Shown piece by piece: positions 1,351 to 32,199 of a DNA stretch of 32,648 nucleotides. A model generated the notes under the pieces. It saw nothing but the letters and a program-made list of their open reading frames with translations, did not search any database and was not told the DNA's origin. Numbering within the stretch: position 1 is the first letter of the stretch; each line of letters starts with the position of its first letter. The stretch spans positions 1-32,648 of the forward strand of contig JAFWIU010000001.1 of NCBI GenBank assembly GCA_017514765.1, given 5' to 3'. This DNA comes from Candidatus Saccharimonadota bacterium (GTDB lineage: Bacteria; Patescibacteriota; Saccharimonadia; Saccharimonadales; Saccharimonadaceae). Position numbers and translations under genes: made by a program.

Positions 1351-2586
1351 ATGAAATTATCGGAAGAATTGATATATCGGGGGTTTAAGGCGGAGACGAC
1401 GATTGAGAAGCCGGAGGAGTTGGACAATCGGGAGTCGAAGAAGTTTTACTGGGGGGCGGATCCAAGTGCGGATTCGCTAACGATTGGTAATTTGGCGGCA
1501 CTCATGATGTGTGCGTGTTTCGTGCGACATGGGTATGAGCCGGTGCTACTCGTCGGTGGGGCGACGGGGCAGATTGGCGATCCGAAGGAGAATGGCGAGC
1601 GAGAGCTTAAACCACTTGAGGAAGTTGAGCATAACAAACAATGTATTAAGCAGCAAATTGAGAGAGTAGTGAATGCTGATAATGTCGTGATGGTGGATAA
1701 TTATGATTGGTTCCGTGATATGAAATATCTCGATTTCCTAAGGGAAGTAGGGAAGGCATTTTCGATGACGCAGCTACTTGATCGGCAGTTTGTACAGAAC
1801 CGGATTGGTGAAGGTGGAGCGGGGATAAGTTATGCGGAGTTTTCGTATACTTTGATTCAGGGATATGATTTCTTGCACCTTTATCGTGAATACGGTGTGG
1901 ATTTGCAGCTTTGTGGGGCGGATCAGTATGGGAACTGTACGTCGGGGATACATCTGATTAAGCGGCTCGAGGATGCAAGGGCGGATGTGTGGTCAACACC
2001 ACTGGTGATTGATTCGGTGACTGGGCGGAAGTTCGGTAAATCTGAGGGGAATGCGGTGTGGTTGGCGTCATCAGATAATGGGAGTGGGAATTACACGTCG
2101 ATATTTGATTTCTATCAGTTCTGGCTAAATCAGCCTGATGAGGCAGTGGAGTATTTGATTAAGATTTATACATTGCTCGGTAAGAAAGAAATTGAAGATA
2201 TACTAGCGCGACATCGTGAGCATCCGGAGGAAAGATTGGCACAGAAAGCGCTGGCGCGGGGTGCGACGGAAGTGGTGCATGGCAAGGCGGCAGCGGAAGC
2301 GATTAAAAATTTGACTGCAATGCTGTTTAATCGGGAGACGAATTTCACGGAGTTTAGTGAAGATGAGATACTAGAGTTCGGGAAGTTCTTGCCGACGGTG
2401 GGGAAGGGCGTGAAATTGGTAGATGCGTTAGTTGACAATGGTCTGGCGGAATCGAAAAAGAAGGCGCGGGAGTTCTTGGCGGCGGGTGCGATTACGGTGA
2501 ATGGTGAAAAAGTGAAAGAAGATGTGGTGATTGAACAGACAGCGCTTGTAAAGAAGGGTAAGAATAAATTCTTGGTGGTGAAGTGA
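1351..2586 (+). CDS. tyrS: Tyrosyl-tRNA synthetase
   Basis: Class I aminoacyl-tRNA synthetase that charges tRNA-Tyr in the cytoplasm. The 411-aa length is normal for bacterial TyrRS. Seen: the HIGH-equivalent segment at residues 43-48 (LTIGNL, an unusual variant of the common LHIGHL), GGATGQIGDP, the tyrosine-binding GADQYGN, and the KMSKS-equivalent KFGKS at 227-231. A C-terminal S4-like RNA-binding domain (roughly 345-411) carries LAESKKKAREFL and AGAITVNG. The start at 1351 follows a TATAAT box by 6 nt. The gene overlaps the next by 4 nt (GTGA) and heads a likely operon with the methyltransferase and rpmA. Confidence 0.96.
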   Translation: MKLSEELIYRGFKAETTIEKPEELDNRESKKFYWGADPSADSLTIGNLAALMMCACFVRHGYEPVLLVGGATGQIGDPKENGERELKPLEEVEHNKQCIKQQIERVVNADNVVMVDNYDWFRDMKYLDFLREVGKAFSMTQLLDRQFVQNRIGEGGAGISYAEFSYTLIQGYDFLHLYREYGVDLQLCGADQYGNCTSGIHLIKRLEDARADVWSTPLVIDSVTGRKFGKSEGNAVWLASSDNGSGNYTSIFDFYQFWLNQPDEAVEYLIKIYTLLGKKEIEDILARHREHPEERLAQKALARGATEVVHGKAAAEAIKNLTAMLFNRETNFTEFSEDEILEFGKFLPTVGKGVKLVDALVDNGLAESKKKAREFLAAGAITVNGEKVKEDVVIEQTALVKKGKNKFLVVK

Positions 2587-3839
2587 AATATTTAGCGGTA
2601 CTCGGGCGTCAACCTGAGATTTCGATTGCAGAACTAGAAGCCATCTATGGTGTAGGGCGACATCAAACATCTTTCTCGGACTGCGTCGCCGCCGCCCGTT
2701 ACCACGGGGGCGGCGCGCTCATCCTCGCCTTGCCAGGCTTCGGAGGCCTTTCGAAAGACGTTTTGATGTCGCCGTCCATAGATCGTTTTGGTGGTGTATT
2801 GAAATTTGCGGTTGAGCTTGAGCAGTCACCGTTGGAGTTTTTGACGGGGTTGCCGGAGGGAAAGTTGACGATTGGGGTGAGTGATTATTCGGAGCGGGCG
2901 ACGCGGAAGACAGCGAGCCAGGAGGCGTTGAAATTGAAAAAGATTTTGGTGCGGCATGGGCGAAGTGTAAGAGTGGTGGAAAACAAAGATGCGGTGCTTT
3001 CGACGGCGACGTCGCTACATAATGGGTTGGGGAGTGGCAATAAACGGAAGGTAGAATTGATTAAGGTCGATGATGAGTGGTATCGGGTGATTGGAGTGCA
3101 GGATATTGATGCCTATGCGAAGCGAGATCAGGTGCGGCCGGCGCGGGATGCGAAAGTTGGGATGCTGCCGCCGAAATTAGCTCAGATTTTGATTAACTTG
3201 TGTGGACCGTTGAAACCTGGTGCGGTGGTGCTGGATCCGTTTTGTGGAACCGGGGTGGTGCTGCAAGAGGCGATTTTGATGGGATATCGAGCATATGGTA
3301 CTGATATCAGCGAGAGGATGGTTGATTACAGTAAAAAGAACTTGAAATGGTTAACGGAAAGCATCGAAAAATCACTTTTGTCGCCGCGCCCCTCGCGCCC
3401 GTCTTCACGGGGCTCGGGCGCTAATTCTCGGCAGCAGCCTCCGAAATGCGCCAAAAGTGACTTTTTCTCGCTTTCCGTTGGCGATGCAACTTCTTTTCAA
3501 TGGAATCGGCCAATTGACGCAGTAGCATGTGAGGGGTATCTCGGGAAGCCGTTCTCGAGGATTCCGACAGAGATGGAGCTTAAAGAGCAGAAACAGGAAT
3601 GTAAAGGGATAGCGATTGGATTTTTGAAGAATATGGCAGGGCAGATTGAGTCTGGTACGCCAGTGGTGATAGCGGCGCCAGCGTGGTTGAAGTCGGATGG
3701 ATCGTATGAGAGGCTTGAGGTTGTTGACGAAATCGAAGATATGGGGTATAATGTTAATAATAAAACGCGAGAGGGGTTGCTTTACCATCGAGATGGTCAG
3801 GTTGTCGCGAGAGATATATTAATTTTAAGGAAGAAGTAA
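2583..3839 (+). CDS. Trm11/TrmG10-like SAM-dependent RNA methyltransferase with two palindromic inserts
   Basis: The GTG start overlaps the tyrS stop (GTGA). The C-terminal half is a Rossmann methyltransferase: SAM motif I at residues 217-224 (LDPFCGTG), then YGTDIS. The catalytic-loop position, usually N/DPPY in this family (COG1041, tRNA guanosine-N2 methyltransferases), reads EGYLGKP at 317-323. The N-terminal part looks like the variable RNA-binding half of that family. A tRNA target is inferred; the exact position is unknown. Two stretches, residues about 25-64 and 258-299, are GC-rich palindromic repeat insertions (see repeats) that keep the frame open but add Ser/Arg/Pro- and Gly/Ala-rich sequence absent from normal domain structure. 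The protein may still be active, since both fall at plausible surface loops. rpmA follows directly. Confidence 0.8.
   Translation: MKYLAVLGRQPEISIAELEAIYGVGRHQTSFSDCVAAARYHGGGALILALPGFGGLSKDVLMSPSIDRFGGVLKFAVELEQSPLEFLTGLPEGKLTIGVSDYSERATRKTASQEALKLKKILVRHGRSVRVVENKDAVLSTATSLHNGLGSGNKRKVELIKVDDEWYRVIGVQDIDAYAKRDQVRPARDAKVGMLPPKLAQILINLCGPLKPGAVVLDPFCGTGVVLQEAILMGYRAYGTDISERMVDYSKKNLKWLTESIEKSLLSPRPSRPSSRGSGANSRQQPPKCAKSDFFSLSVGDATSFQWNRPIDAVACEGYLGKPFSRIPTEMELKEQKQECKGIAIGFLKNMAGQIESGTPVVIAAPAWLKSDGSYERLEVVDEIEDMGYNVNNKTREGLLYHRDGQVVARDILILRKK
2656..2773. repeat. Palindromic element A, inserted in the methyltransferase gene
   Basis: The ends are inverted repeats: GGCGACATCAAA-CA-TCTTTC at 2656 against GGCGACATCAAAACGTCTTTC reading back from 2773. 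The middle is GC-rich with its own hairpin (CGCCGCCCGT ... ACGGGGGCGGCG). It shares core words with elements B and C. It adds about 40 codons in frame. Confidence 0.75.
3354..3478. repeat. Palindromic element B, inserted in the methyltransferase gene
   Basis: The two 27-bp arms, starting ACGGAAAGC and ending TCACTTTTG on each strand, match at 22 of 27 positions. The core CGCGCCCGTC-N3-ACGGGGCTC is nearly the same as in element C. It encodes SPRPSRPSSRGSGANSRQQ within the methyltransferase. Confidence 0.8.
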
Positions 3840-4153: not shown

Positions 4154-4185
4154 GATTCAGTGTTCTTGTGGAAAGGGCGGTTCTG

Positions 4186-4191
4186 TGATAT
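4186..4191 (+). promoter_or_regulatory. -10 box of mntA-hepT
   Basis: TGTGATATAAT upstream of mntA. The expected start point near 4198 gives a leader of about 22 nt holding AAGGAA, so unlike many neighbours this gene has a Shine-Dalgarno. It also argues against the longer reading frame from 4160, which would overlap the promoter. Confidence 0.65.
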
Positions 4192-4219
4192 AATTATAGA
4201 CATAAGCAAGGAATATGAT

Positions 4220-4513
4220 ATGCTGACAATAGAAAGAATTAAAGAAGTTGTGACAAGGGTTGGGAAGAAATATGGGATTAAGAGTGCCCATCTTTTTGGT
4301 TCCTATGCGAAAAAAAATGCAACTGAGACTTCTGATGTTGATTTAATAATCGACCGTGATAAGGCGTTGCATACTTATAAAGAGTTCTTCCATTTTTGTG
4401 ATGATTTGGAAACAGAACTTGGCACTAGTGTGGATGTAGTTGTGGAAGATAGTGTGCATCCTGATTTCTTTGATATGATTAAAAAGGATAGGGTTTTATT
4501 GTATGGAATCTAG
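4220..4513 (+). CDS. mntA: MntA-type nucleotidyltransferase antitoxin
   Basis: 97-aa minimal nucleotidyltransferase. Seen: FGSYA at residues 26-30 and SDVDL at 38-42, with a third acidic residue likely at D72 (VDVVVED), the GSX10DXD signature of the MNT family. In characterised MntA/HepT pairs the antitoxin neutralises HepT by adding AMP to a tyrosine of its RX4HXY motif. I place the start at ATG 4220 rather than 4160 because the extra 20 residues would be encoded by the promoter. It overlaps hepT by 11 nt, which indicates coupled expression. Confidence 0.88.
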   Translation: MLTIERIKEVVTRVGKKYGIKSAHLFGSYAKKNATETSDVDLIIDRDKALHTYKEFFHFCDDLETELGTSVDVVVEDSVHPDFFDMIKKDRVLLYGI

Positions 4514-4847
4514 GGATGAATACTTAATAAAACTTATTGTTGAATATTGTGATGATGTACTGGCTGCGGTTCGGGATTATGATGTAGATTTAGACAAGGT
4601 AAATAATAGCCCTGCTATACGTGCGATGATGGCGTTTTTTGTAATGCAGATTGGTGAATCCGCGAGGCAATTAAGTGATATATTTAAAGCTAATCATCCC
4701 GAGATGGAATGGAAAGAAATTATTGGTTTTCGTAACCAGATTGCACATGTCTATGGTAGAGTCATCCCAGATATTCTGTGGGATACGGTGGAAAATGATG
4801 TGCCTAAGTTGAGAAACTATTGTAATACTATTCTAGGAAAAAAGTAA
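4503..4847 (+). CDS. hepT: HepT-type HEPN ribonuclease toxin
   Basis: 114-aa HEPN-domain protein. The catalytic motif RX4HXY is intact: R77, H82 and Y84 in FRNQIAHVYG. Y84 is the expected AMPylation target of the partner MntA. HEPN toxins of this class cut RNA (tRNA in studied cases) when released from the antitoxin; they are often tied to phage defence or element stability. The ORF starts inside the last codons of mntA and ends just before a strong terminator, so the pair is a self-contained two-gene unit between rpmA and a surface protein. Confidence 0.9.
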   Translation: MESRDEYLIKLIVEYCDDVLAAVRDYDVDLDKVNNSPAIRAMMAFFVMQIGESARQLSDIFKANHPEMEWKEIIGFRNQIAHVYGRVIPDILWDTVENDVPKLRNYCNTILGKK

Positions 4848-5011: not shown

Positions 5012-6955
5012 ATGAGACAAGGTAAGAGATCATTAAATGGCATGTTGCTAGTAGTAAGTGGGCTAGTGATGATGACAATGTCGGGGATGGTATTGGTCGG
5101 TAGTAGGGTGCTAGCGGACGATGCGGTGACGGTGCAAACATCTATTATGGTACCGATTGCTTGTACAATGCAAGGCACTGGTACGACACACGCAGCGACT
5201 CTGTCGCCAAATACTTATTCGGGTGCATCTGGTTCTGCATATGAAAACGGCATAGGTAAGACTACCCTCACCGCTATTTGTAATGACGATAATGGCTTCT
5301 CTATCTATGCGATAGGATATACTGGTAATTCATATACTGATACTAACCATACTAAATTAGTAGGTAATACGACTGGTGGTACAATTAATACAGCAGTGTA
5401 TGCTAACGGTGATTCTACCTCCAGTTGGTCTATGAAACTAATTAAGGTGACAGACGCATCGGAATCTTACAATCCACAGAACCTAACTATTTCAACTGGT
5501 TATGATGACTGGATAGCGGTACCAGCATCCTTTACTAAGGTAGCTCAATATAAAGCTAATACAGGTTCTTCTACTACAGATATGACATTAGGTGTTAAAC
5601 TAGAAACAACCTATGCGGCTTATGTATCTGCTAATCAATCAGCTGATACTTACATAGGACAAGTGAAGTATACAATGGTGCATCCCTATAATGAAGAACC
5701 AGTACAACCACAGCAAGCTACAGCTGGTTGCATTAACTATTTTGCTAATGCAAGTAGTGCAGTAGGTAGTATGGGATGTCAGTCTGCTACAGATGGAAAC
5801 ACTATTACCCTACTTGCATCTAATTTCAGTAGAACAGGTTATGGTTTTGCGGGATGGTCTGATAAGTTTGACTATGCCACGAATATTGAAGCACATTTTT
5901 ATGGTCCACAGGAAGACATTACAGTACCAACTGGTACTACCGCTAATGGTCTAAGTCTCTATGCTGTATGGGTAAAGTCACAAGGTAACTTGCAAGATGC
6001 TAGTAAAGTCTCATCTATCTGCTCTGGACTTACCACTGCACCTACTGATGGTACTGCCAATCTCTCATCTATCTCCGCATTAACCGATCAACGCGACAAC
6101 GAAACCTACGCTATTGCTAAATTGGCTGATGGCAAATGTTGGATGATTGAAAACCTAAGACTTGAAAGCACCAACAGCGACAACTCGACGGGCGCTCTCG
6201 CGCAAGGTTATGGTACAAGTACTACCTATGGCAACTTCGGAGGTCTAGCCGATGCAGAATCTGCTAAATTTTCTAATTCCACTACCGCCAACTCTCTTTA
6301 TTATAGTGGCACCCAAAGTGGTGATGCAACTATAAATATTGGTACTACGAATTACCCAGCCTACCGTATGCCGCGCTATAATAACCTTAATACTCAATCC
6401 AGAGCACAAAACAGTCCAAATAGTAATACGTTTTCAGACGACAATACTACAGGTGGTATGTATAGTTATGGCAATTATTATACTTGGCATGCTGCTATAG
6501 CAGATCTTACCTACAATGATACCAACAACAGCACTGTAACAAATACTTCACTTTGTCCGTCTGGTTGGAGATTGCCACAAGGTGGTAATAAGACCAGAAT
6601 CACTTCAAATGACGATAATGACTTCTGGAACCTCACAGTAGATGCTCTAAATGGCGGTACCAATCCGGCCAACTATGATAGTAGCGATTCTCCATACTAC
6701 AACGGTACCGCTGAAGCTGGTCCAGTAACAGCTAGGCTTAGAGCTTACCCAAATAACTTCCTTTACTCCGGCTACTTCTATACGTCGTCTGCCTACAGTA
6801 GAGGTAGTAGCGGCTACTATTGGTCGTCTACTGCGTACAATAACTACGGTTCGTACAACCTGCGCCTGGATAGTTCCCGCGTGTACCCAGGTACCGATTA
6901 CGGCGTTAAGTACCTTGGCTACAGTATTAGATGCACGGTATCGGCCGGTACTTAG
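5012..6955 (+). CDS. Secreted surface protein with InlB-like repeat and Fib_succ_major domain, DGR target
   Basis: 647 aa. Residues 1-36 are a Sec signal peptide: basic MRQGKR, a hydrophobic core and likely cleavage after VLA (ADDAV follows). Residues about 37-235 form a Thr/Ser/Asn-rich extracellular region I do not recognise. Residues about 239-327 hold an InlB-type repeat (RTGYGFAGW ... LYAVW), and about 357-642 a Fib_succ_major C-type-lectin-like domain (LTDQRDN, KCWMIENLRL, LCPSGWRLP). The last ~55 codons are a variable region. The protein is paralogous to the one ending at 1252; between the two genes the upstream domains have drifted at synonymous sites while the variable regions have not. 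Likely role: a diversified receptor for host or environmental ligands (inference). No C-terminal sorting signal or membrane helix is visible, so how it attaches is unclear. Confidence 0.88.
   Translation: MRQGKRSLNGMLLVVSGLVMMTMSGMVLVGSRVLADDAVTVQTSIMVPIACTMQGTGTTHAATLSPNTYSGASGSAYENGIGKTTLTAICNDDNGFSIYAIGYTGNSYTDTNHTKLVGNTTGGTINTAVYANGDSTSSWSMKLIKVTDASESYNPQNLTISTGYDDWIAVPASFTKVAQYKANTGSSTTDMTLGVKLETTYAAYVSANQSADTYIGQVKYTMVHPYNEEPVQPQQATAGCINYFANASSAVGSMGCQSATDGNTITLLASNFSRTGYGFAGWSDKFDYATNIEAHFYGPQEDITVPTGTTANGLSLYAVWVKSQGNLQDASKVSSICSGLTTAPTDGTANLSSISALTDQRDNETYAIAKLADGKCWMIENLRLESTNSDNSTGALAQGYGTSTTYGNFGGLADAESAKFSNSTTANSLYYSGTQSGDATINIGTTNYPAYRMPRYNNLNTQSRAQNSPNSNTFSDDNTTGGMYSYGNYYTWHAAIADLTYNDTNNSTVTNTSLCPSGWRLPQGGNKTRITSNDDNDFWNLTVDALNGGTNPANYDSSDSPYYNGTAEAGPVTARLRAYPNNFLYSGYFYTSSAYSRGSSGYYWSSTAYNNYGSYNLRLDSSRVYPGTDYGVKYLGYSIRCTVSAGT
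6764..6940 (+). repeat. DGR variable region 2 (VR2)
   Basis: Partner of VR1. Variable codons lie between 6779 and 6922. Framework codons such as GGYYWSSTA, SS.V.PGTD and SIRCTV are kept, while the 19 differing codons are almost all NNY with the same third base in both copies. One exception class also fits A-directed change: atg in VR1 against aag here. Confidence 0.85.
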
Positions 6956-8076: not shown

Positions 8077-8189
8077 GTAACCGAATAGTGCCTTTCGGGG
8101 ACGGGTCGTTCGCGCCCGTCGTTACGGGGCTCACGCCCTTTTCCCTCGGTCGTAACCTGCGGACACCACTCAAGGCACTATTCGGTCAC
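8077..8189. repeat. Palindromic element C, intergenic
   Basis: A perfect 15-bp inverted repeat (ACCGAATAGTGCCTT at 8080-8094 and its complement at 8172-8186), extended to GTAACCG/GTGACCG, surrounds a GC-rich core CGCGCCCGTC-GTT-ACGGGGCTC shared with element B. It fills the space between the flippase-like gene and xseA and may terminate or attenuate transcription. Confidence 0.8.
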
Positions 8190-10377: not shown

Positions 10378-10484
10378 ATTTCTTGTTAAAAAGCGTTATT
10401 TTGGTGTTTTTCCTCGTTCGCTCGTCGATTAGACGCACTTCACTCGGAGAAAACACCAATCTAGCGCTTTTTAACTAAGAAATC
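10377..10484. repeat. Palindromic element D, intergenic
   Basis: Arms of about 40 bp (GATTTCTT-GTTAAAAAGCG ... GGTGTTTT on one side, GATTTCTTAGTTAAAAAGCG ... GGTGTTTT in complement on the other) with few mismatches and a 30-nt core. Part of the arm (AAAAAGCGCTAT.TCGGCGTTTTTT) recurs just downstream at 10494-10518. The whole would fold into one long hairpin and may also end transcription of the PsbP-like gene. Confidence 0.75.
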
Positions 10485-25432: not shown

Positions 25433-27541
25433 ATGGGGAATCTAAAAGATATTCAGATAGAAAAATCATATTCGAGCGAAGGACAAAATTTACTCAGTGA
25501 TTTCTATGTCCCCGTACTTAAATGTGCTAAAAAATATGACCGGATCTCTGGTTTTTTCTCTCCGAAAATTCTTTCTGTTGCAGCAAGAGGTTTTGCGCAA
25601 GCTATTAAGAACGACGTAAAAATTAGACTCGTGACCAGCATAAAAGTCGATCAAAGCTTAGCCGAACTATCTATTGAAGACATTCAAAAAACGTTACTAT
25701 TCAACTTGGCTCAGTGGGATGTAAATGAAATACAAGACGAACTTGAAAAAGATTATTTAAAAGTCTTTTCGTACATGCTTAGTAGTGGGATGCTAGAGAT
25801 GAAAATAGCCATCATGAATAATGATGGTATTTTGCATCAAAAAGTTGGTATTATTACTGATCAGGACAATAACGCTATTTCGTTTAGCGGATCGAATAAT
25901 GAGACTGTTTATGGTTGGGAAACAAACGACGAGGAGTTTAAAGTATTCACAAATTGGAATATTGCGTCAATTGATTATTTTGACTCTGATAAAAAGAAGT
26001 TCGAGAAGATTTGGAGTGGCAATTATGCGCACGCAAAAGTAGTTGATTTGCCAGATGCTATACGTACGAAGATTATTGATTATACAAAAACCGAAGAAGA
26101 CATCGATAAAGTAATTGAACGAGTTAAAAAACGAGAGAATGGCGGTATCGTAAAACCGGACGAGAATAAAAGAGAGCCAAGACCATATCAACTTGAAGCT
26201 ATCAACCACTGGTTTAGCAATAATTTCAATTCGATATTCGCCATGGCAACTGGTACTGGAAAAACTTTCACAACAATGAATGCTCTAAAGCGTTTTAGGG
26301 AAATTATGGGATCGTTAAACGCAGTAATAGCTGTGCCATTAAGAACGCTAGCGGAACAATGGGAAAATGAAGTGGTTGATTTTTTCCCAGATATAGCAAT
26401 TATTAATACGTCGGAAAGTTCAGATTGGAAATATAGAGTCAAAGCAATTGAGCAAGATTATCAACGTCGAGGTACTGTTAAGGATTTCGTAATTATTACG
26501 ACTTATTCATCATTCCCCAATATAGCTGAATCGATGATTGGTGAAGATGTATTGTTGGTAGCAGATGAAATGCACAATTTAGCCACCGATAGAGGACTAA
26601 AGGCAGCAGCTTCCGATATATTTAGATATAAGATCGGACTTAGTGCCACTCCGGAAAGATTATGGAAACCATCCGAAAGCGCAGTACTAACTCAATTATT
26701 CGGCAATAATCGTTTCGAATTTGGCATTGAACAGGCGCTGGATAATAATTGTTTGGTACATTTTAATTATCATCCGAATTTTATTGAGCTTACAGCAGAC
26801 GAATATGAAGAATATGTCCAGCTATCAAGAAAAATTGCAAAGATGGCGGCAAGTGTGAGTGGGGACGTTGATGATAACTACGATGCTGGCGATAATACTG
26901 CACTGAATATGGAACTTATAAAACGATCCAGAATCAAAAAGAACGCCGTATCTAAAATTCCTTATATCATCCAACAATTAAAGAGCCTAAAAGATAAATC
27001 CGAGCTAAATAGAGCCCTCATATATGTAGATAATGAAGTGTTCTTAAACGACTTACAAAATGCTCTAGCAACATCAAGGATAGTTACATCACGTTTTCTA
27101 GGAAGTACGCCATCGGATGAGAGAAATAAAATAATTCAGAATCTATGTTCTAATACAATCGATGCAATTATAGCAATTAAGTGTCTTGATGAGGGTGTCG
27201 ACATTCCATCAGCCAGACAAGCGTTTATCCTATCTAACGGTACTGATCCACGTGAGTATGTGCAGCGCTTAGGCCGTGTTTTGAGAAAAGATGATAAAAG
27301 TGGAAAGAAAGTGGCTGAAGTTCATGACTATTTGATACTACCGCCATCAGGAATTCGATACGCTGACGACTTCGAGAGAAACACTATTAGAAATATGGTT
27401 AAAAACGAAATCAAAAGATCTAATTTCTTTGTTCGTCTTTCGAATAATGGAGACGAAGCCAAAGATATAATAGCGGAAAAGGCGTTTTCGCTTGGCTTTG
27501 ATTTCACGGATGATTTTAATGACGAAAGAAAGGAGATTTAA
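25433..27541 (+). CDS. PLD-nuclease/SF2-helicase fusion, restriction-type
   Basis: 702 aa. The N-terminal phospholipase-D-like nuclease domain (residues about 1-200) has H135-x-K137 and GSNNE at 153-157. The SF2 DEAD/DEAH core follows: Q-type RPYQLEAI, Walker A ATGTGKT at 272-278, motif II DEMH at 378-381, motif III GLSATPERL, motif V LDEGVDIP, motif VI QRLGRVLRK. One PLD half-motif means a dimer would be needed for catalysis. Such fusions act as DNA restriction effectors, including helicases named for phosphorothioation restriction in Dnd islands. It is the first gene of a four-gene operon; one base separates its stop from the next start. Codon use is rich in AGA, unlike the core genes. Confidence 0.85.
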   Translation: MGNLKDIQIEKSYSSEGQNLLSDFYVPVLKCAKKYDRISGFFSPKILSVAARGFAQAIKNDVKIRLVTSIKVDQSLAELSIEDIQKTLLFNLAQWDVNEIQDELEKDYLKVFSYMLSSGMLEMKIAIMNNDGILHQKVGIITDQDNNAISFSGSNNETVYGWETNDEEFKVFTNWNIASIDYFDSDKKKFEKIWSGNYAHAKVVDLPDAIRTKIIDYTKTEEDIDKVIERVKKRENGGIVKPDENKREPRPYQLEAINHWFSNNFNSIFAMATGTGKTFTTMNALKRFREIMGSLNAVIAVPLRTLAEQWENEVVDFFPDIAIINTSESSDWKYRVKAIEQDYQRRGTVKDFVIITTYSSFPNIAESMIGEDVLLVADEMHNLATDRGLKAAASDIFRYKIGLSATPERLWKPSESAVLTQLFGNNRFEFGIEQALDNNCLVHFNYHPNFIELTADEYEEYVQLSRKIAKMAASVSGDVDDNYDAGDNTALNMELIKRSRIKKNAVSKIPYIIQQLKSLKDKSELNRALIYVDNEVFLNDLQNALATSRIVTSRFLGSTPSDERNKIIQNLCSNTIDAIIAIKCLDEGVDIPSARQAFILSNGTDPREYVQRLGRVLRKDDKSGKKVAEVHDYLILPPSGIRYADDFERNTIRNMVKNEIKRSNFFVRLSNNGDEAKDIIAEKAFSLGFDFTDDFNDERKEI

Positions 27542-27736
27542 ATGGACGACTATTTAAATAATGATATGGTCGAAGCAATAAACGCCTGTAAACTGTCACA
27601 AGAAGCAAATAGCGCCATAAGACAAATACTAATGCGAGAGCGTAGCGAAAAAAACGTCTTAGGGGCGAACGACCTCGAAACGCTAGAGCAATATGACAAA
27701 ATAATTGACGAGGCTGTTAATAAGGGAGGAAATTAA
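27542..27736 (+). CDS. 64-aa helical protein between helicase and DndD-like ATPase
   Basis: Not recognised. It is acidic, probably two or three helices, with NDLETLEQYDKIIDEAVNKGG at the end. The start ATG directly follows the helicase stop, with AAAGGAG inside the helicase end, and its stop lies just before the next start, so it is translated as part of the operon. It is likely a small subunit or adaptor of the complex; a bridging role is inference only. Confidence 0.6.
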   Translation: MDDYLNNDMVEAINACKLSQEANSAIRQILMRERSEKNVLGANDLETLEQYDKIIDEAVNKGGN

Positions 27737-27737
27737 T

Positions 27738-29672
27738 ATGGTACATTTTGATTATGTAAAAATCTCCCACTTTAGATCATATATTGATACAGAAATTGAA
27801 TTCGACAGCGAAACCGGCGTCTATATAATTAATGGCGATAATGGTACAGGTAAGTCAACTTTCTTGAATGCAATCAACTGGTGTCTATATGGAGATACCC
27901 CATTCTACAGCGTTAAGAGATATATAGAAGTCGCAAATATTGACGACCCAGATGGTACGGAAACTTCAGTTGAACTATGGGCAACAATTGATGATTATAA
28001 ATATCGCTTTATTCGAAGAGTCAGAAAAGGACAAGGCACAACTGGAGAATTATCCGTTCAGAGAGCAAGAGAGATCGATGCGAACAATTACGAAACCCTA
28101 GACAGAGTAGAAAGCAATGATGCAGTAAAGCAATTAGTACCAAAAGAATTACGACAGCTATTCTTCTTTAACGGCGAGCAGTTAAAGGATATCTATAGCG
28201 GTACCGGCGACGGCCATAACACTTTGCGCAGTAATGTATATCAAGTGTCAGAGCTTGATATTATCGATAACGGCATCAATCACCTTACAGAGTTAAGCAA
28301 GCGTTATTATAAGGCGATCACCAAAAATAATAAGAACAAAGATAAATGCGACGAACTAAAAAGCGATATTGAACAACTTGAGTCAGCCATCAAGGGTAGC
28401 CAAGAGCTCATTGATCAATATAAAGATGAAGTAAAAGATGCCAAAGCCAAAATCAATACACTTGACGAATTAATCAAGAATACCGCAGATGCACGCTCGT
28501 TGATCGAGCAGCGTGATATCTACGACAAACAAATAAAAGAACTAGATACGCAGATCTTCAACTTAAAACAAGATAAGAATGAAATTTTAGTAGAAAACTT
28601 TCATTCGGCTATTTTGTTTGATAAATTTGCAGATTACGCAGTCGTTCTCAATAACGCTAAGAGTGACGGAAAAATTCCAGCAGAAGTAGACCCGAAAGTA
28701 ACTAGAGCTATTCTTGATTCCGGGATCTGTTTGTGTGGACACCATATCACGGATGAAGAAAGAGCATTGATTCAGCAAAGACACGATGACTACGAAAAAC
28801 GCCAAGAGCTCCAATTCTTGACCGATGGAATCTATAAGTTTTCTGAAATTGCAAATAAATTGCCGATTGAGGGCGACAAATATGAAGACAGAGTAGATCG
28901 AATTAGCGAGCTAAAAACTCAAAAGGACAACATAGCGAAGAAGCTTAAAAAGATAAACGAACAACTTGAACAAGTTGATACAGCAAATATTCCAGACCAC
29001 CCAGAGAACGAAAGAGCTCGCCTACTTAGTAAAATTGAGCGTAATGGCATATTGGCCGTAAACGCAGCGCAAAACAAGGTCAAAAAAGAAGAAGAGCTAT
29101 CAGAAAAGAAGACGGAGCTCAAGCGCCTCACGAGTGCGGATACTGATACTAAAGACTACCAAAATAAGTATGAATATGTCGAAAAACTTATTGAGACTAT
29201 GTCTGAAGTAAAAGATAAGATGGAGAAAATTATTCGAGAAAAGCTCGAAGACAAAATGTGGCGTGTCTTCTCGGATATCTTGCCAAACACTGAGTATAAA
29301 GGAATCGAAATAAGCGATACATATTCCATCCGCTTGAAATACAAGGGCGATCAGGCATATTCCGTAGAAATGCTCGCAACCGGACCGGCTAAGGTACTGG
29401 GGCTAGCACTAATCTATGCTTTATCAATGGATCTTGGCTACAAGAGCGTTCCACTGCTAATTGATAACTTATACGGCGACATCGCAGATACTCACCATGA
29501 GGCTATGTCTACAATGATAAATTCGTTGGCAAAGAACAAACAGATCATCGTGATGAACCTAGTAGGAACAAATACCAGTGATATTCATATCGGCGGAAAC
29601 AACGTCATGGGTCGCTTCTTAATTGTCAAAGACGAAAATGCCAATGAGGCAAAGATCGTAAAGGAGAACTAA
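27738..29672 (+). CDS. DndD-like SMC-family ATPase
   Basis: 644 aa. ABC/SMC-type ATPase split by a coiled coil: Walker A GDNGTGKST at 33-41, then LFFFNGEQL, the FFF(D/N)GE motif typical of DndD. Two long coiled coils (about 190-290 and 385-495) flank a CLCG centre at 331-334, where a zinc hook would lie, although only two cysteines are seen per chain. The C-terminal lobe has a loose signature (ATGPAKVLGLALIYAL) and Walker B-like LLIDNLYGD with D576, in place of the DndD-type IDTPLG. DndD serves DNA phosphorothioation with DndC and DndE, but none of those is present, so here it probably powers or gates the PLD-helicase. I start at ATG 27738, after GGGAGGAAA; the longer TTG frame overlaps the preceding gene. 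Confidence 0.82.
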   Translation: MVHFDYVKISHFRSYIDTEIEFDSETGVYIINGDNGTGKSTFLNAINWCLYGDTPFYSVKRYIEVANIDDPDGTETSVELWATIDDYKYRFIRRVRKGQGTTGELSVQRAREIDANNYETLDRVESNDAVKQLVPKELRQLFFFNGEQLKDIYSGTGDGHNTLRSNVYQVSELDIIDNGINHLTELSKRYYKAITKNNKNKDKCDELKSDIEQLESAIKGSQELIDQYKDEVKDAKAKINTLDELIKNTADARSLIEQRDIYDKQIKELDTQIFNLKQDKNEILVENFHSAILFDKFADYAVVLNNAKSDGKIPAEVDPKVTRAILDSGICLCGHHITDEERALIQQRHDDYEKRQELQFLTDGIYKFSEIANKLPIEGDKYEDRVDRISELKTQKDNIAKKLKKINEQLEQVDTANIPDHPENERARLLSKIERNGILAVNAAQNKVKKEEELSEKKTELKRLTSADTDTKDYQNKYEYVEKLIETMSEVKDKMEKIIREKLEDKMWRVFSDILPNTEYKGIEISDTYSIRLKYKGDQAYSVEMLATGPAKVLGLALIYALSMDLGYKSVPLLIDNLYGDIADTHHEAMSTMINSLAKNKQIIVMNLVGTNTSDIHIGGNNVMGRFLIVKDENANEAKIVKEN

Positions 29673-29673
29673 T

Positions 29674-30114
29674 ATGAGTACAACAGTAAAATGGCCAATG
29701 CTTTCAATATCCGAAGAAGATAACGAACTAGTTAAAAAAGTTAAGAAATTTCCAGGTGCTCTCCAGTCAATACAAGACAGGGATATTTTAATGATAGCCG
29801 CCTCCATAGCGGTAGCATTAGACATTAAACCGGCCCCACAAAAAGAGACACGTGGACACGATATCATGAACGGTCCAACATTAAGTGGCGCTCCACTTGA
29901 TGATTATAGACAACATATGTTACTTATGTACTGGTCGACTCAAATAAAAAACGATGACTTATCATCAATGGGTGACACCAATGCCGTCGTTGAAAACTTT
30001 AAAGATTATGCACATAGAGGACTTTTGTACTTAAACGAAGTGTATCTTAAGCCCGATGGAGATCAGAAACTCCAAGATAAATTTTTGGATTTAGTCCAAC
30101 GATTTAAGAAGTAA
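29674..30114 (+). CDS. Dnd-associated protein 4-like small protein
   Basis: 146 aa. Two landmarks recall the 'Dnd system-associated protein 4' family as I remember it: a helix with RDILMIAASIAVALDI at 36-51, where that family has RDALMFAAALG-like sequence, and a C-terminal helix with FKDYAHRGLLYLNEVY. The family is known only by its position in phosphorothioation islands and has no proven activity. It is the last gene of the operon (AAAGGAG before ATG, one base after the DndD-like stop) and is followed by a strong terminator. The assignment is from memory of motif shape, so it should be treated as a hypothesis. Confidence 0.55.
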   Translation: MSTTVKWPMLSISEEDNELVKKVKKFPGALQSIQDRDILMIAASIAVALDIKPAPQKETRGHDIMNGPTLSGAPLDDYRQHMLLMYWSTQIKNDDLSSMGDTNAVVENFKDYAHRGLLYLNEVYLKPDGDQKLQDKFLDLVQRFKK

Positions 30115-30138
30115 AAAACAAAGAGCATAAAAACATGG

Positions 30139-30170
30139 TCTGCGGGTTAGTGAAGCCCGCAGATTTTTTC
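30139..30170 (+). terminator. Terminator of the defence operon
   Basis: TCTGCGGG, a 9-nt loop, CCCGCAGA, then TTTTTTC. Confidence 0.85.
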
Positions 30171-30220
30171 TATGGCGTGATTAAGATTAATGACAAAAAC
30201 GTCACAAATAGTAGATATGA

Positions 30221-30226
30221 TATAAT
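30221..30226 (+). promoter_or_regulatory. -10 box of the zinc-ribbon nuclease gene
   Basis: ATGATATAAT with 11 nt to ATG 30238, so a leader of about 5 nt and no Shine-Dalgarno. Confidence 0.6.
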
Positions 30227-30237
30227 AATTGTTATAG

Positions 30238-32199
30238 ATGTCAACTAGCAAACCTAAGCTATCAGTTTCGGAGACGCCGTTCATTAGCGAGTGGGATTTT
30301 GAGGACAACAAACTTGACCCATCGGTTACCTCGATCTCGTCTAAAGAAAAAGCATGGTGGAAATGCCACAATTGTGGAGGGAGATACGAGACTTCGATCA
30401 ATCTAAAAACTATTCGTGGCATTAAATGTCCATATTGCACTGGAAATAGAGCTCTACCTGGTTTTAATGACCTGTTAACCAAATATCCTGAAATATGCAA
30501 AGAATGGGATTACGACAAAAATGTCATTCAACCATCAGAAGTTATGCCAGGATCAGGAAAGAGAGTATGGTGGATTTGTAGCAAATGCCATGGCAGCTAT
30601 GAAACCCAAATTCTTTCAAGGACGGGCGGACATGGATGTCCTTTTTGCAGAGGAATTAAAGTACTAAAAGGTTATAATGACCTGCAAACCTTAAGACCAG
30701 ATGTGGCGAAATACTGGGATACGAAGAAAAATAATCTTAAACCAGACGAAGTCACAATTGGCACGCATAAGAAATATTACTGGAAATGTAACAGCTGCGA
30801 TTATACTTGGTGCGACAGCGTTAATCATCAAGTCCACAAAAAAGGCTGTCCGGCATGCAAGATTGGAAAAAGCGATAGGTGCGGCATTAGAGTAGCAACA
30901 AAAGACAACTGCTTGTCAACTACGAACCCAGAAGTATTAACAAGTTGGGATTATTCGAAAAACACAATAAAGCCAGAAGAAGTAACTTCAGGAAGTGGCA
31001 AGATCGTATATTGGCATTGCGACAAATGCCACACCGAGTATCAGAAGAAAATTGGCGAACAAGTGAAGTATGGGTGTAGCTATTGTAATGGCAAATACCC
31101 AATTAAGGGTAAAAATGATTTAGCGACGTTATATCCAGATGTAGCTAAAGAATGGAATTACGAGAAAAATGGCAACTTAACACCAGACTGCGTAACCGCA
31201 ATGAATACAAGAAAGGTCTGGTGGAAATGTTCAAACTGCGGCAGAGAGTGGCAAGCCTATATTGAAAACAGGACGAGAGATAATAATGGGTGTCCTAGTT
31301 GTCAGGCACGCACGCACACATCCTTCCCAGAACAAGCAGTATTTTATTATATTAATAAAGCACTCCCAGATACACTCAATAGTTATCGAGATATTTTTGA
31401 TACAAGGATGGAGTTGGACATATACATACCTTCGAGAAAAATTGCAATCGAATATGACGGTAAGGCCTGGCATAAAAACAAATCAGATATTCAAAGAGAT
31501 ATCAACAAATACAATATCTGCAAAAAACATGGAATAAAACTAATAAGATTAGCTGAAGGCAATGATATCATTGAGCATTGCGATGAAGTAATAAAGTGCG
31601 ACTATAAAGCATTCCATTATATAGAGCTCGACGATGCAATTAAGAAGCTATCTGAAATCCTTGATATAAAAGTAGACATAGATAGCCATAGAGATGAAAA
31701 AATCATATTGCAGTCATACTTGGGTAGATTAGAAAAAGAATCAATTAAAGAGCTCTATCCGGAAAAATGCAAATACTGGGATTATGCGAATAACGGCACG
31801 TTAAAACCAAGCATGTTTAAACCCACAAGCGGAGTCCGTGTTGCATGGATCTGCCCTTCATGCGGCAAAAAATATGAAAGAAAAATTGGTGAGCAAATGC
31901 GAGGCTTGGGGCTATGCGCCAAATGTACCAGAAAAGAAACGTCAAAGCGATTACATGAAACAAAATTAAAAGAAAACGGAAGTCTAATGGACAAATATCC
32001 GGAAATCGCAAAATCGTGGGATTACGAAAAGAATGGCAAGTTAACGCCTAATGATGTTACGGCGCATTCTAGTCAAAGAATTTGGTGGAAATGCAACAAT
32101 TCGGAATGTAATCATTCTTGGATAACAGCTATATCTAATAGGACTGGCGGAGACAGAACTGGTTGCCCTAAATGCCACCAGGGTGGCCAAGGCAAATAA
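30238..32199 (+). CDS. Multi-zinc-ribbon protein with central Vsr-like nuclease domain
   Basis: 653 aa. Seven copies of the DUF4379-type (PF14311) zinc ribbon, each about 60-65 residues: P(E/D).(A/C)K.WDY.KN..L.P..V.....K.WW.C..C...........GCP.C. Five precede and two follow a nuclease-like domain at about 360-450. That domain has FPEQ at 363-366, E392-L-D394 and IAIEYDGKAWH with E405 and D407, then IKLIRL, the layout of Vsr/PD-(D/E)XK proteins. The ribbons presumably bind DNA; the nuclease would cut or nick it. Similar proteins occur beside defence and mobile genes. It has its own promoter after the operon terminator, so it is a neighbour rather than a co-transcribed member. It is A-rich and shares the accessory codon bias. 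Confidence 0.8.
   Translation: MSTSKPKLSVSETPFISEWDFEDNKLDPSVTSISSKEKAWWKCHNCGGRYETSINLKTIRGIKCPYCTGNRALPGFNDLLTKYPEICKEWDYDKNVIQPSEVMPGSGKRVWWICSKCHGSYETQILSRTGGHGCPFCRGIKVLKGYNDLQTLRPDVAKYWDTKKNNLKPDEVTIGTHKKYYWKCNSCDYTWCDSVNHQVHKKGCPACKIGKSDRCGIRVATKDNCLSTTNPEVLTSWDYSKNTIKPEEVTSGSGKIVYWHCDKCHTEYQKKIGEQVKYGCSYCNGKYPIKGKNDLATLYPDVAKEWNYEKNGNLTPDCVTAMNTRKVWWKCSNCGREWQAYIENRTRDNNGCPSCQARTHTSFPEQAVFYYINKALPDTLNSYRDIFDTRMELDIYIPSRKIAIEYDGKAWHKNKSDIQRDINKYNICKKHGIKLIRLAEGNDIIEHCDEVIKCDYKAFHYIELDDAIKKLSEILDIKVDIDSHRDEKIILQSYLGRLEKESIKELYPEKCKYWDYANNGTLKPSMFKPTSGVRVAWICPSCGKKYERKIGEQMRGLGLCAKCTRKETSKRLHETKLKENGSLMDKYPEIAKSWDYEKNGKLTPNDVTAHSSQRIWWKCNNSECNHSWITAISNRTGGDRTGCPKCHQGGQGK

Follow-up and report, generated by a model that had tools for sequence, protein, structure and literature searches.

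Palindromic elements with a conserved core and variable, complementary arms, inserted in genes of one genus of Saccharibacteria

Why does a conserved enzyme gene carry two long palindromes that leave its reading frame open, and how might such segments spread? The gene lies in the window, by which we mean the whole 32,648-nt stretch of DNA from a Candidatus Saccharimonadota bacterium that was analysed. Its product is a Trm-type methyltransferase with a DPFCGTG motif; the Pfam assignment is UPF0020/N6_N4_Mtase, the protein resembles TIGR01177 but scores under the cut-off of that model, and it was matched in 40 of 40 relatives. An AlphaFold model made from a six-row alignment was uninformative (mean pLDDT 46). 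The original prediction had placed two palindromes inside this gene, in frame. Both are present, as elements A and B, and element C lies between genes in the same window:

2583..3839, + strand: host gene, Trm-type (DPFCGTG) methyltransferase, 418 aa, carrying A and B in frame
2643-2783, + strand: element A, whole, in the host methyltransferase
2643..2675, + strand: left arm of A (main part 2656-2675); 2643-2650 lies within native codons around A-I-Y-G
2676..2752, + strand: GC-rich core of A, with hairpin CGCCCGTTACCACGGGG at 2693-2709 and a covariance model match at 2674-2755
2753..2783, + strand: right arm of A (main part 2753-2773); 2776-2783 lies within native codons S-I-D
3353-3479, + strand: element B, whole, in the host methyltransferase
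3353..3384, + strand: left arm of B, 32 nt
3385..3447, + strand: core of B, with hairpin CGCCCGTCTTCACGGGG at 3396-3412
3448..3479, + strand: right arm of B, whose outer half is native beta-strand codons (FFSLSV before GDAT)
8080-8186, + strand: element C, whole, intergenic, with an LPG_synthase_TM ORF on one side and the exonuclease VII large subunit on the other
8080..8094, + strand: left arm of C; degenerate pairing extends to 8067
8095..8171, + strand: core of C, with hairpin CGCCCGTCGTTACGGGG at 8113-8129
8172..8186, + strand: right arm of C; degenerate pairing extends to 8199

The cores are indeed GC-rich (0.70-0.73 vs 0.43 across the window). Pairing scores for the arms of A and B are 16 and 17, whereas random segments of the window average about 7; each score was equalled by one of 300 random draws, possibly a draw overlapping the elements themselves. 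In element B, the two 32-nt arms are 81% complementary. The core pattern proposed in the original prediction matched exactly at 3394 and 8111, where shuffled sequence leads one to expect none, and the version of it with three free positions gave no matches because the hairpin loop has four bases. The core of element A is a variant that matches only the shorter pattern CGCCCGTNNNNACGGGG.

We searched the 697-kb genome with this core, a step proposed along with the original prediction, and recovered 14 exact copies of CGCCCGTNNNNACGGGG plus variants; a covariance model made from 20 copies raised the count to 28. The same model found the family in 57 of the 60 congeneric genomes examined (1-34 copies each), gave one weak match in 12 genomes from other genera of the family, and had no match in the sampled families beyond the host's own. 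A public scan for exact cores, with one genome per species, returned at least 116 loci; among the matches listed, nearly all were from Candidatus Saccharibacteria and most were from the ruminant gut. By simple arithmetic, about two chance matches would be expected in the genome contig collection. One viral match (L286), when inspected, had no complementary arms and appears to be due to chance. The family is specific to one genus of gut and rumen Saccharibacteria and almost absent outside it. We found no description of it in Saccharibacteria or other CPR bacteria in the literature searched, which was largely without subscription papers.

A unit consists of an arm (about 22 nt), a GC-rich core (about 75 nt) and the complementary arm, and spans about 115 bp overall (about 105-140 bp). 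The core comprises an invariant hairpin, CCCGT-N4-ACGGG, and a second, more variable part. Thirteen of the 14 exact copies in the genome (the exception is L010) have self-complementary arms, mostly 15-30 nt long, whose sequences vary from copy to copy. Among 132 exact-core elements, the left and right flanks of the same element had a median pairing score of 15.5, vs 6 for flanks swapped between elements; 92% paired above the 99th percentile of the swapped flanks, and the median arm was 22 nt. When copies are aligned on the core, hardly any sequence information is left in the left arms, the exceptions being TTC at the inner edge and a weak A-rich stretch at 9-13 nt out. Across 169 copies, all four Watson-Crick pairs occur in each arm column, and the five central pairs of the first hairpin are nearly invariant; covariation is seen in the arms and the outer core helix. 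A common core with arms that differ between copies, first noticed from the window, thus holds for copies in this genome and its congeners.

Comparison with orthologues showed genes without the insert for both sites in the methyltransferase, and many of the 24 congeneric methyltransferases have neither. At site A, other methyltransferases have about 16 ordinary residues where this gene has element A. Site B lies between NLKWL and xFxLxxGDAT and is occupied by an element in seven genomes, in both orientations. Elsewhere, the tyrosyl-tRNA synthetase (TyrRS) gene of L239 carries a 118-nt unit where the empty genes of our genome and L187 have 1 nt between the flanks, and the empty sites in IleRS and ArgRS have 8 and 9 nt, respectively. 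These empty orthologous sites show that the unit is an insertion. The segments are not conserved protein carried by all orthologues, and the genome holds further copies; the opposite in either respect would have spoken against the original prediction. Presence is patchy among related genomes. No transposition event was seen, and the closest genome pair compared was 88% identical in one gene, so that there was no truly fresh insertion among the copies inspected.

The insertions recur in the same protein loops, and essential genes are among their hosts. Recurrent sites, named by sequence motifs, lie in putative GatA, ValRS, IleRS, LeuRS, ArgRS, TruB, MnmA and others. These aminoacyl-tRNA synthetases, as well as GatA, TruB, MnmA and further proteins, gain loops from the element. 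Overall, 141 of 177 catalogued copies are flanked on both sides by coding sequence in an open frame, and 132 of the 136 copies with both flanks matching one protein are in frame, where one third would be expected. This excess is what the survival of in-frame insertions would produce, with the inserts presumably translated. The peptides that the core encodes, in several frames and either orientation, include EPRNDGRE, SPVTTGA, SRPSLRGS, APVVTGL and ARRYGA; stretches of the first three kinds in these proteins should be annotated as inserted repeats.

The original prediction offered two origins for the arms, compensatory evolution and capture from the target. Compensation is clearly supported; capture of target sequence is seen at certain sites alone, methyltransferase site B and TyrRS in L197, where it concerns outer or single arms. 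In 140 pairs of non-orthologous copies that share at least 95% core identity, median arm similarity was 0.28, vs 0.22 for shuffled arms, and 5% of the pairs shared arms; orthologous pairs with equal core identity had an arm similarity of 0.61. Loci L170-L285 were retrieved by an exact 20-nt core pattern, which inflates their core identity; the smaller sets from looser searches (G000, G062, G066 and G020) show the same pattern. At orthologous sites the arms diverge more than the core and yet keep their pairing. Where both sides of an arm pair had changed, 305 pairs were still paired vs 86 unpaired, with about 59 paired expected by independence; this count is indicative, since the orthologue comparisons share elements and are not independent. 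Examples are GTGCC/GGCAC vs GTGTC/GACAC in L126/L134 and ATACTCTC/GAGAGTAT vs AAATCTTC/GAAGATTT in L130/L136. Complementarity at orthologous sites rules out plain decay of one common arm. The core itself is inverted between its arms in 45 of 174 orthologous pairs; in L123/L127, for example, an inverted 68-nt core is identical while the flanking loci are 82% identical.

Could the arms instead be made at the moment of insertion? Under this proposal, the core is attached to the end of a nicked or broken target and then folds back so that about 20 nt of target are copied, leaving one native arm and its inverted copy. Site B looks like such a product, in that across the seven genomes the right arm is mostly the native, conserved beta-strand, which the left arm repeats in inverted form. 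Likewise, the left arm of TyrRS in L197 includes native codons located outside the arm in L239. When filled and empty sites were compared (n=67), 31% of the comparisons had an arm that matched the empty homologue more closely than 95% of foreign arms (p<0.05), where about 10% would be expected. Another point in favor of the proposal is that near-identity of the core in non-orthologous copies goes with arms that are unrelated. However, both arms of the TyrRS insert in L239 are extra to the single native nucleotide between its flanks, and the clearest shared arms, of the GCGAGAATACCCGTCGTTC type and with the same core sub-type, occur in four different genes (L007, L190, L194 and L250). Arms can thus be carried with the element, and such carriage is seen in at least one sub-lineage. 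The empty TyrRS site and the shared arms rule out pure target copies as a general rule. Orthologous copies also go on changing their arms after insertion, and we consider arm formation at insertion unlikely. Most simply, arms are carried and then turn over rapidly, in pairs, with flanking sequence being copied into the arm opposite. On this account the arms probably move together with the element and later undergo compensatory, perhaps templated, turnover that spreads into native sequence. The kept complementarity may reflect selection on the hairpin or templated repair, and the data fit both. The family offers a natural set of well over 100 palindromes in which such co-evolution of arms, by either route, can be measured.

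The best clue to the mechanism of spread is a strand bias. For 80% of copies the G-rich strand is also the + strand of the core (mean GC skew +0.096, se 0.011), and the skew stays positive for cores antisense to the host gene. On three contigs of our genome (C5, C6 and C9), 19 of 22 copies are on the G-rich strand; genes on C5 are mostly on the opposite strand, yet the copies there follow the G-rich one. In most bacteria the G-rich strand is the leading strand, and elements that exploit single-stranded DNA at replication forks are known to show an orientation bias of this kind. If the G-rich strand is also the leading strand here, the bias, antisense copies included, indicates that orientation follows replication and not transcription, which makes a fork mechanism testable.

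We therefore favor, with somewhat more confidence than doubt, a small, non-autonomous, selfish element, specific to the genus, that spreads as a hairpin and whose arms are kept paired by templated change. From the strand bias, the palindromy and the lack of a target duplication, we infer that it would spread via a single-stranded hairpin form at the replication fork. The arms would travel with the element and need only to pair. After insertion, template switching or gene conversion between arms would keep them complementary and push the palindrome outwards, so that native flank codons would be copied, inverted, into the opposite, unconstrained arm. Only insertions that keep the frame, at places where the protein tolerates a low-complexity loop of about 35-45 residues, would survive, and the inserts would be translated rather than removed.

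A second palindromic family bears on how general such a process might be. Two sister genomes (G062 and G020) carry, at some of the same sites, an unrelated element (CTCGGGAGCGCTCCGGGCCGCTAGGCCGAGTCTTACTCCCTCGAG and relatives) with arms of its own:

L159 1406-1451: second palindromic family, unrelated
L153 1405-1448: second palindromic family, unrelated
L160 568-613: second palindromic family, unrelated
L078 2836-2878: second palindromic family, unrelated

The sites, and perhaps the process, are thus common to more than one core. We tentatively entertain a broader idea, which we think possible but would not expect to hold: hairpins free of any transposase could move as single-stranded DNA at forks and rebuild their arms from host surroundings by template switching, with at least two unrelated cores using the same process and the same protein loops. 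If true, transposase-free, fork-borne hairpins with self-rebuilt arms would form a class.

An ordinary MITE, whose ends are recognised by a transposase encoded elsewhere and whose arm differences are plain decay, would share the size, copy number, inverted ends and lack of coding capacity of the unit. Its ends should not be the least conserved part, however, and here the centre is the most conserved, the arm logo is nearly flat, arms are mostly unrelated between copies, and complementarity is kept rather than lost. A target duplication, which the original prediction suggested looking for, was not found: direct repeats at the outer edges were at or below chance for k>=3, with the outer edge itself fuzzy, as arms may grow. 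Our screen for mobilising enzymes covered Y1 transposases and reverse transcriptases (RVT_1). Y1_Tnp (PF01797) was found in only 2 of 60 congeners and not in our genome; RVT_1 (PF00078) genes are present in 40 of 60 congeners, but none was found in our genome, with its 28 copies, or in G003, G004 and G070. Neither RAYT (Y1) nor reverse transcriptase mobilisation showed an association with the element, and we regard the MITE explanation as improbable.

Host selection for a structured RNA or a bidirectional terminator would account for the covariation in the arms and outer core helix, and several intergenic copies do start with A-runs and finish with T-runs, as bidirectional terminators would. 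Yet most catalogued copies lie within unrelated protein genes, related genomes differ patchily in carrying them, cores are often inverted at orthologous sites and no Rfam family was matched by the element, which together make a maintained host function very improbable. A mini-intron removed from RNA, or a bypass element skipped by the ribosome, is scarcely credible: complementary arms would bring the flanks together and insertions in essential genes would be explained, but neither removal nor bypass needs the near-universal frame-keeping seen here, and no intron family matches.

Selfish palindromic DNA lying in frame within genes is a classic curiosity of Rickettsia and Wolbachia, and the elements described here look like a previously unreported counterpart of the Rickettsia selfish palindromes. 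That a family of this kind runs through a genus of the reduced Saccharibacteria suggests a phenomenon that recurs where bacterial genomes are reduced. Rickettsia palindromic elements (RPEs) are transposable palindromic repeats, present in many copies within protein genes whose function they do not abolish (PMC6649704; PMC3733652). The Saccharibacteria elements resemble them as dispersed palindromes, at tens of copies per genome, in frame and absent from orthologues, and the likeness to RPEs in a CPR host, suggested in the original prediction, holds. They differ in host, in conserving the core and not the ends, in an orientation that follows the G-rich strand, and in arms that stay complementary by paired changes, whereas RPE repeats are reported to lose identity over time (PMC6649704). 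By analogy the element works like an RPE; as to kinship in sequence, the scan for exact cores, with one genome per species, gave almost only Saccharibacteria among the matches listed.

Wolbachia palindromic elements are palindromic regions that sit in frame and bring in no premature stops (PMC4224334). The likeness, in a different host, is one of behavior, and arm turnover does not figure in the part of the description drawn on here (PMC4224334). REPs are small palindromic repeats, sometimes intragenic, with a RAYT-linked GTAG class and a CGTC class that includes RPE-4 and RPE-6 and seems to have no dedicated transposase (PMC3733652). They measure 20-40 bp, in contrast to about 115 bp with site-specific complementary arms in Saccharibacteria, where the Y1 transposases of the REP/RAYT system are nearly absent from the genus. 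The mitochondria of Nematomorpha have palindromes in coding genes whose arm complementarity is actively maintained, and for which template switching was proposed (PMC6649704). The likeness lies in complementary arms that are kept paired within coding genes; the nematomorph palindromes have no described dispersed core, and their arms are native coding sequence of up to 142 bp (PMC6649704).

Several further observations were made along the way. In L073 (about 1460-1560) and L139 (about 1420-1520), the left arm and first core bases are partly duplicated in tandem beside a full element, as if copying had restarted. L124, aligned to L126/L134, has a 24-nt, partly palindromic insertion, CTCGGAACGAATTGCCGAAGGCAA, in the loop of the invariant hairpin. 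A long palindrome just after an ORF in the window (10381-10480) has arms of about 30 nt and the core CCTCGTTCGCTCGTCGATTAGACGCACTTCACTCGGAG, which recurs in L177 at 97.5% identity and may be a third repeat family. Two diverged copies of a putative surface protein gene, about 73-80% identical in blocks of DNA, lie at 59-1252 and 5012-6955 of the window. By eye, adjoining nucleotidyltransferase-like and HEPN-like small ORFs at 4160-4847 are possibly an MNT-HEPN toxin-antitoxin pair, and positions 25433-32199, with a helicase-type protein, an SMC-like ATPase, a small ORF and a protein in which zinc-ribbon-like motifs are repeated, resemble a defence island.
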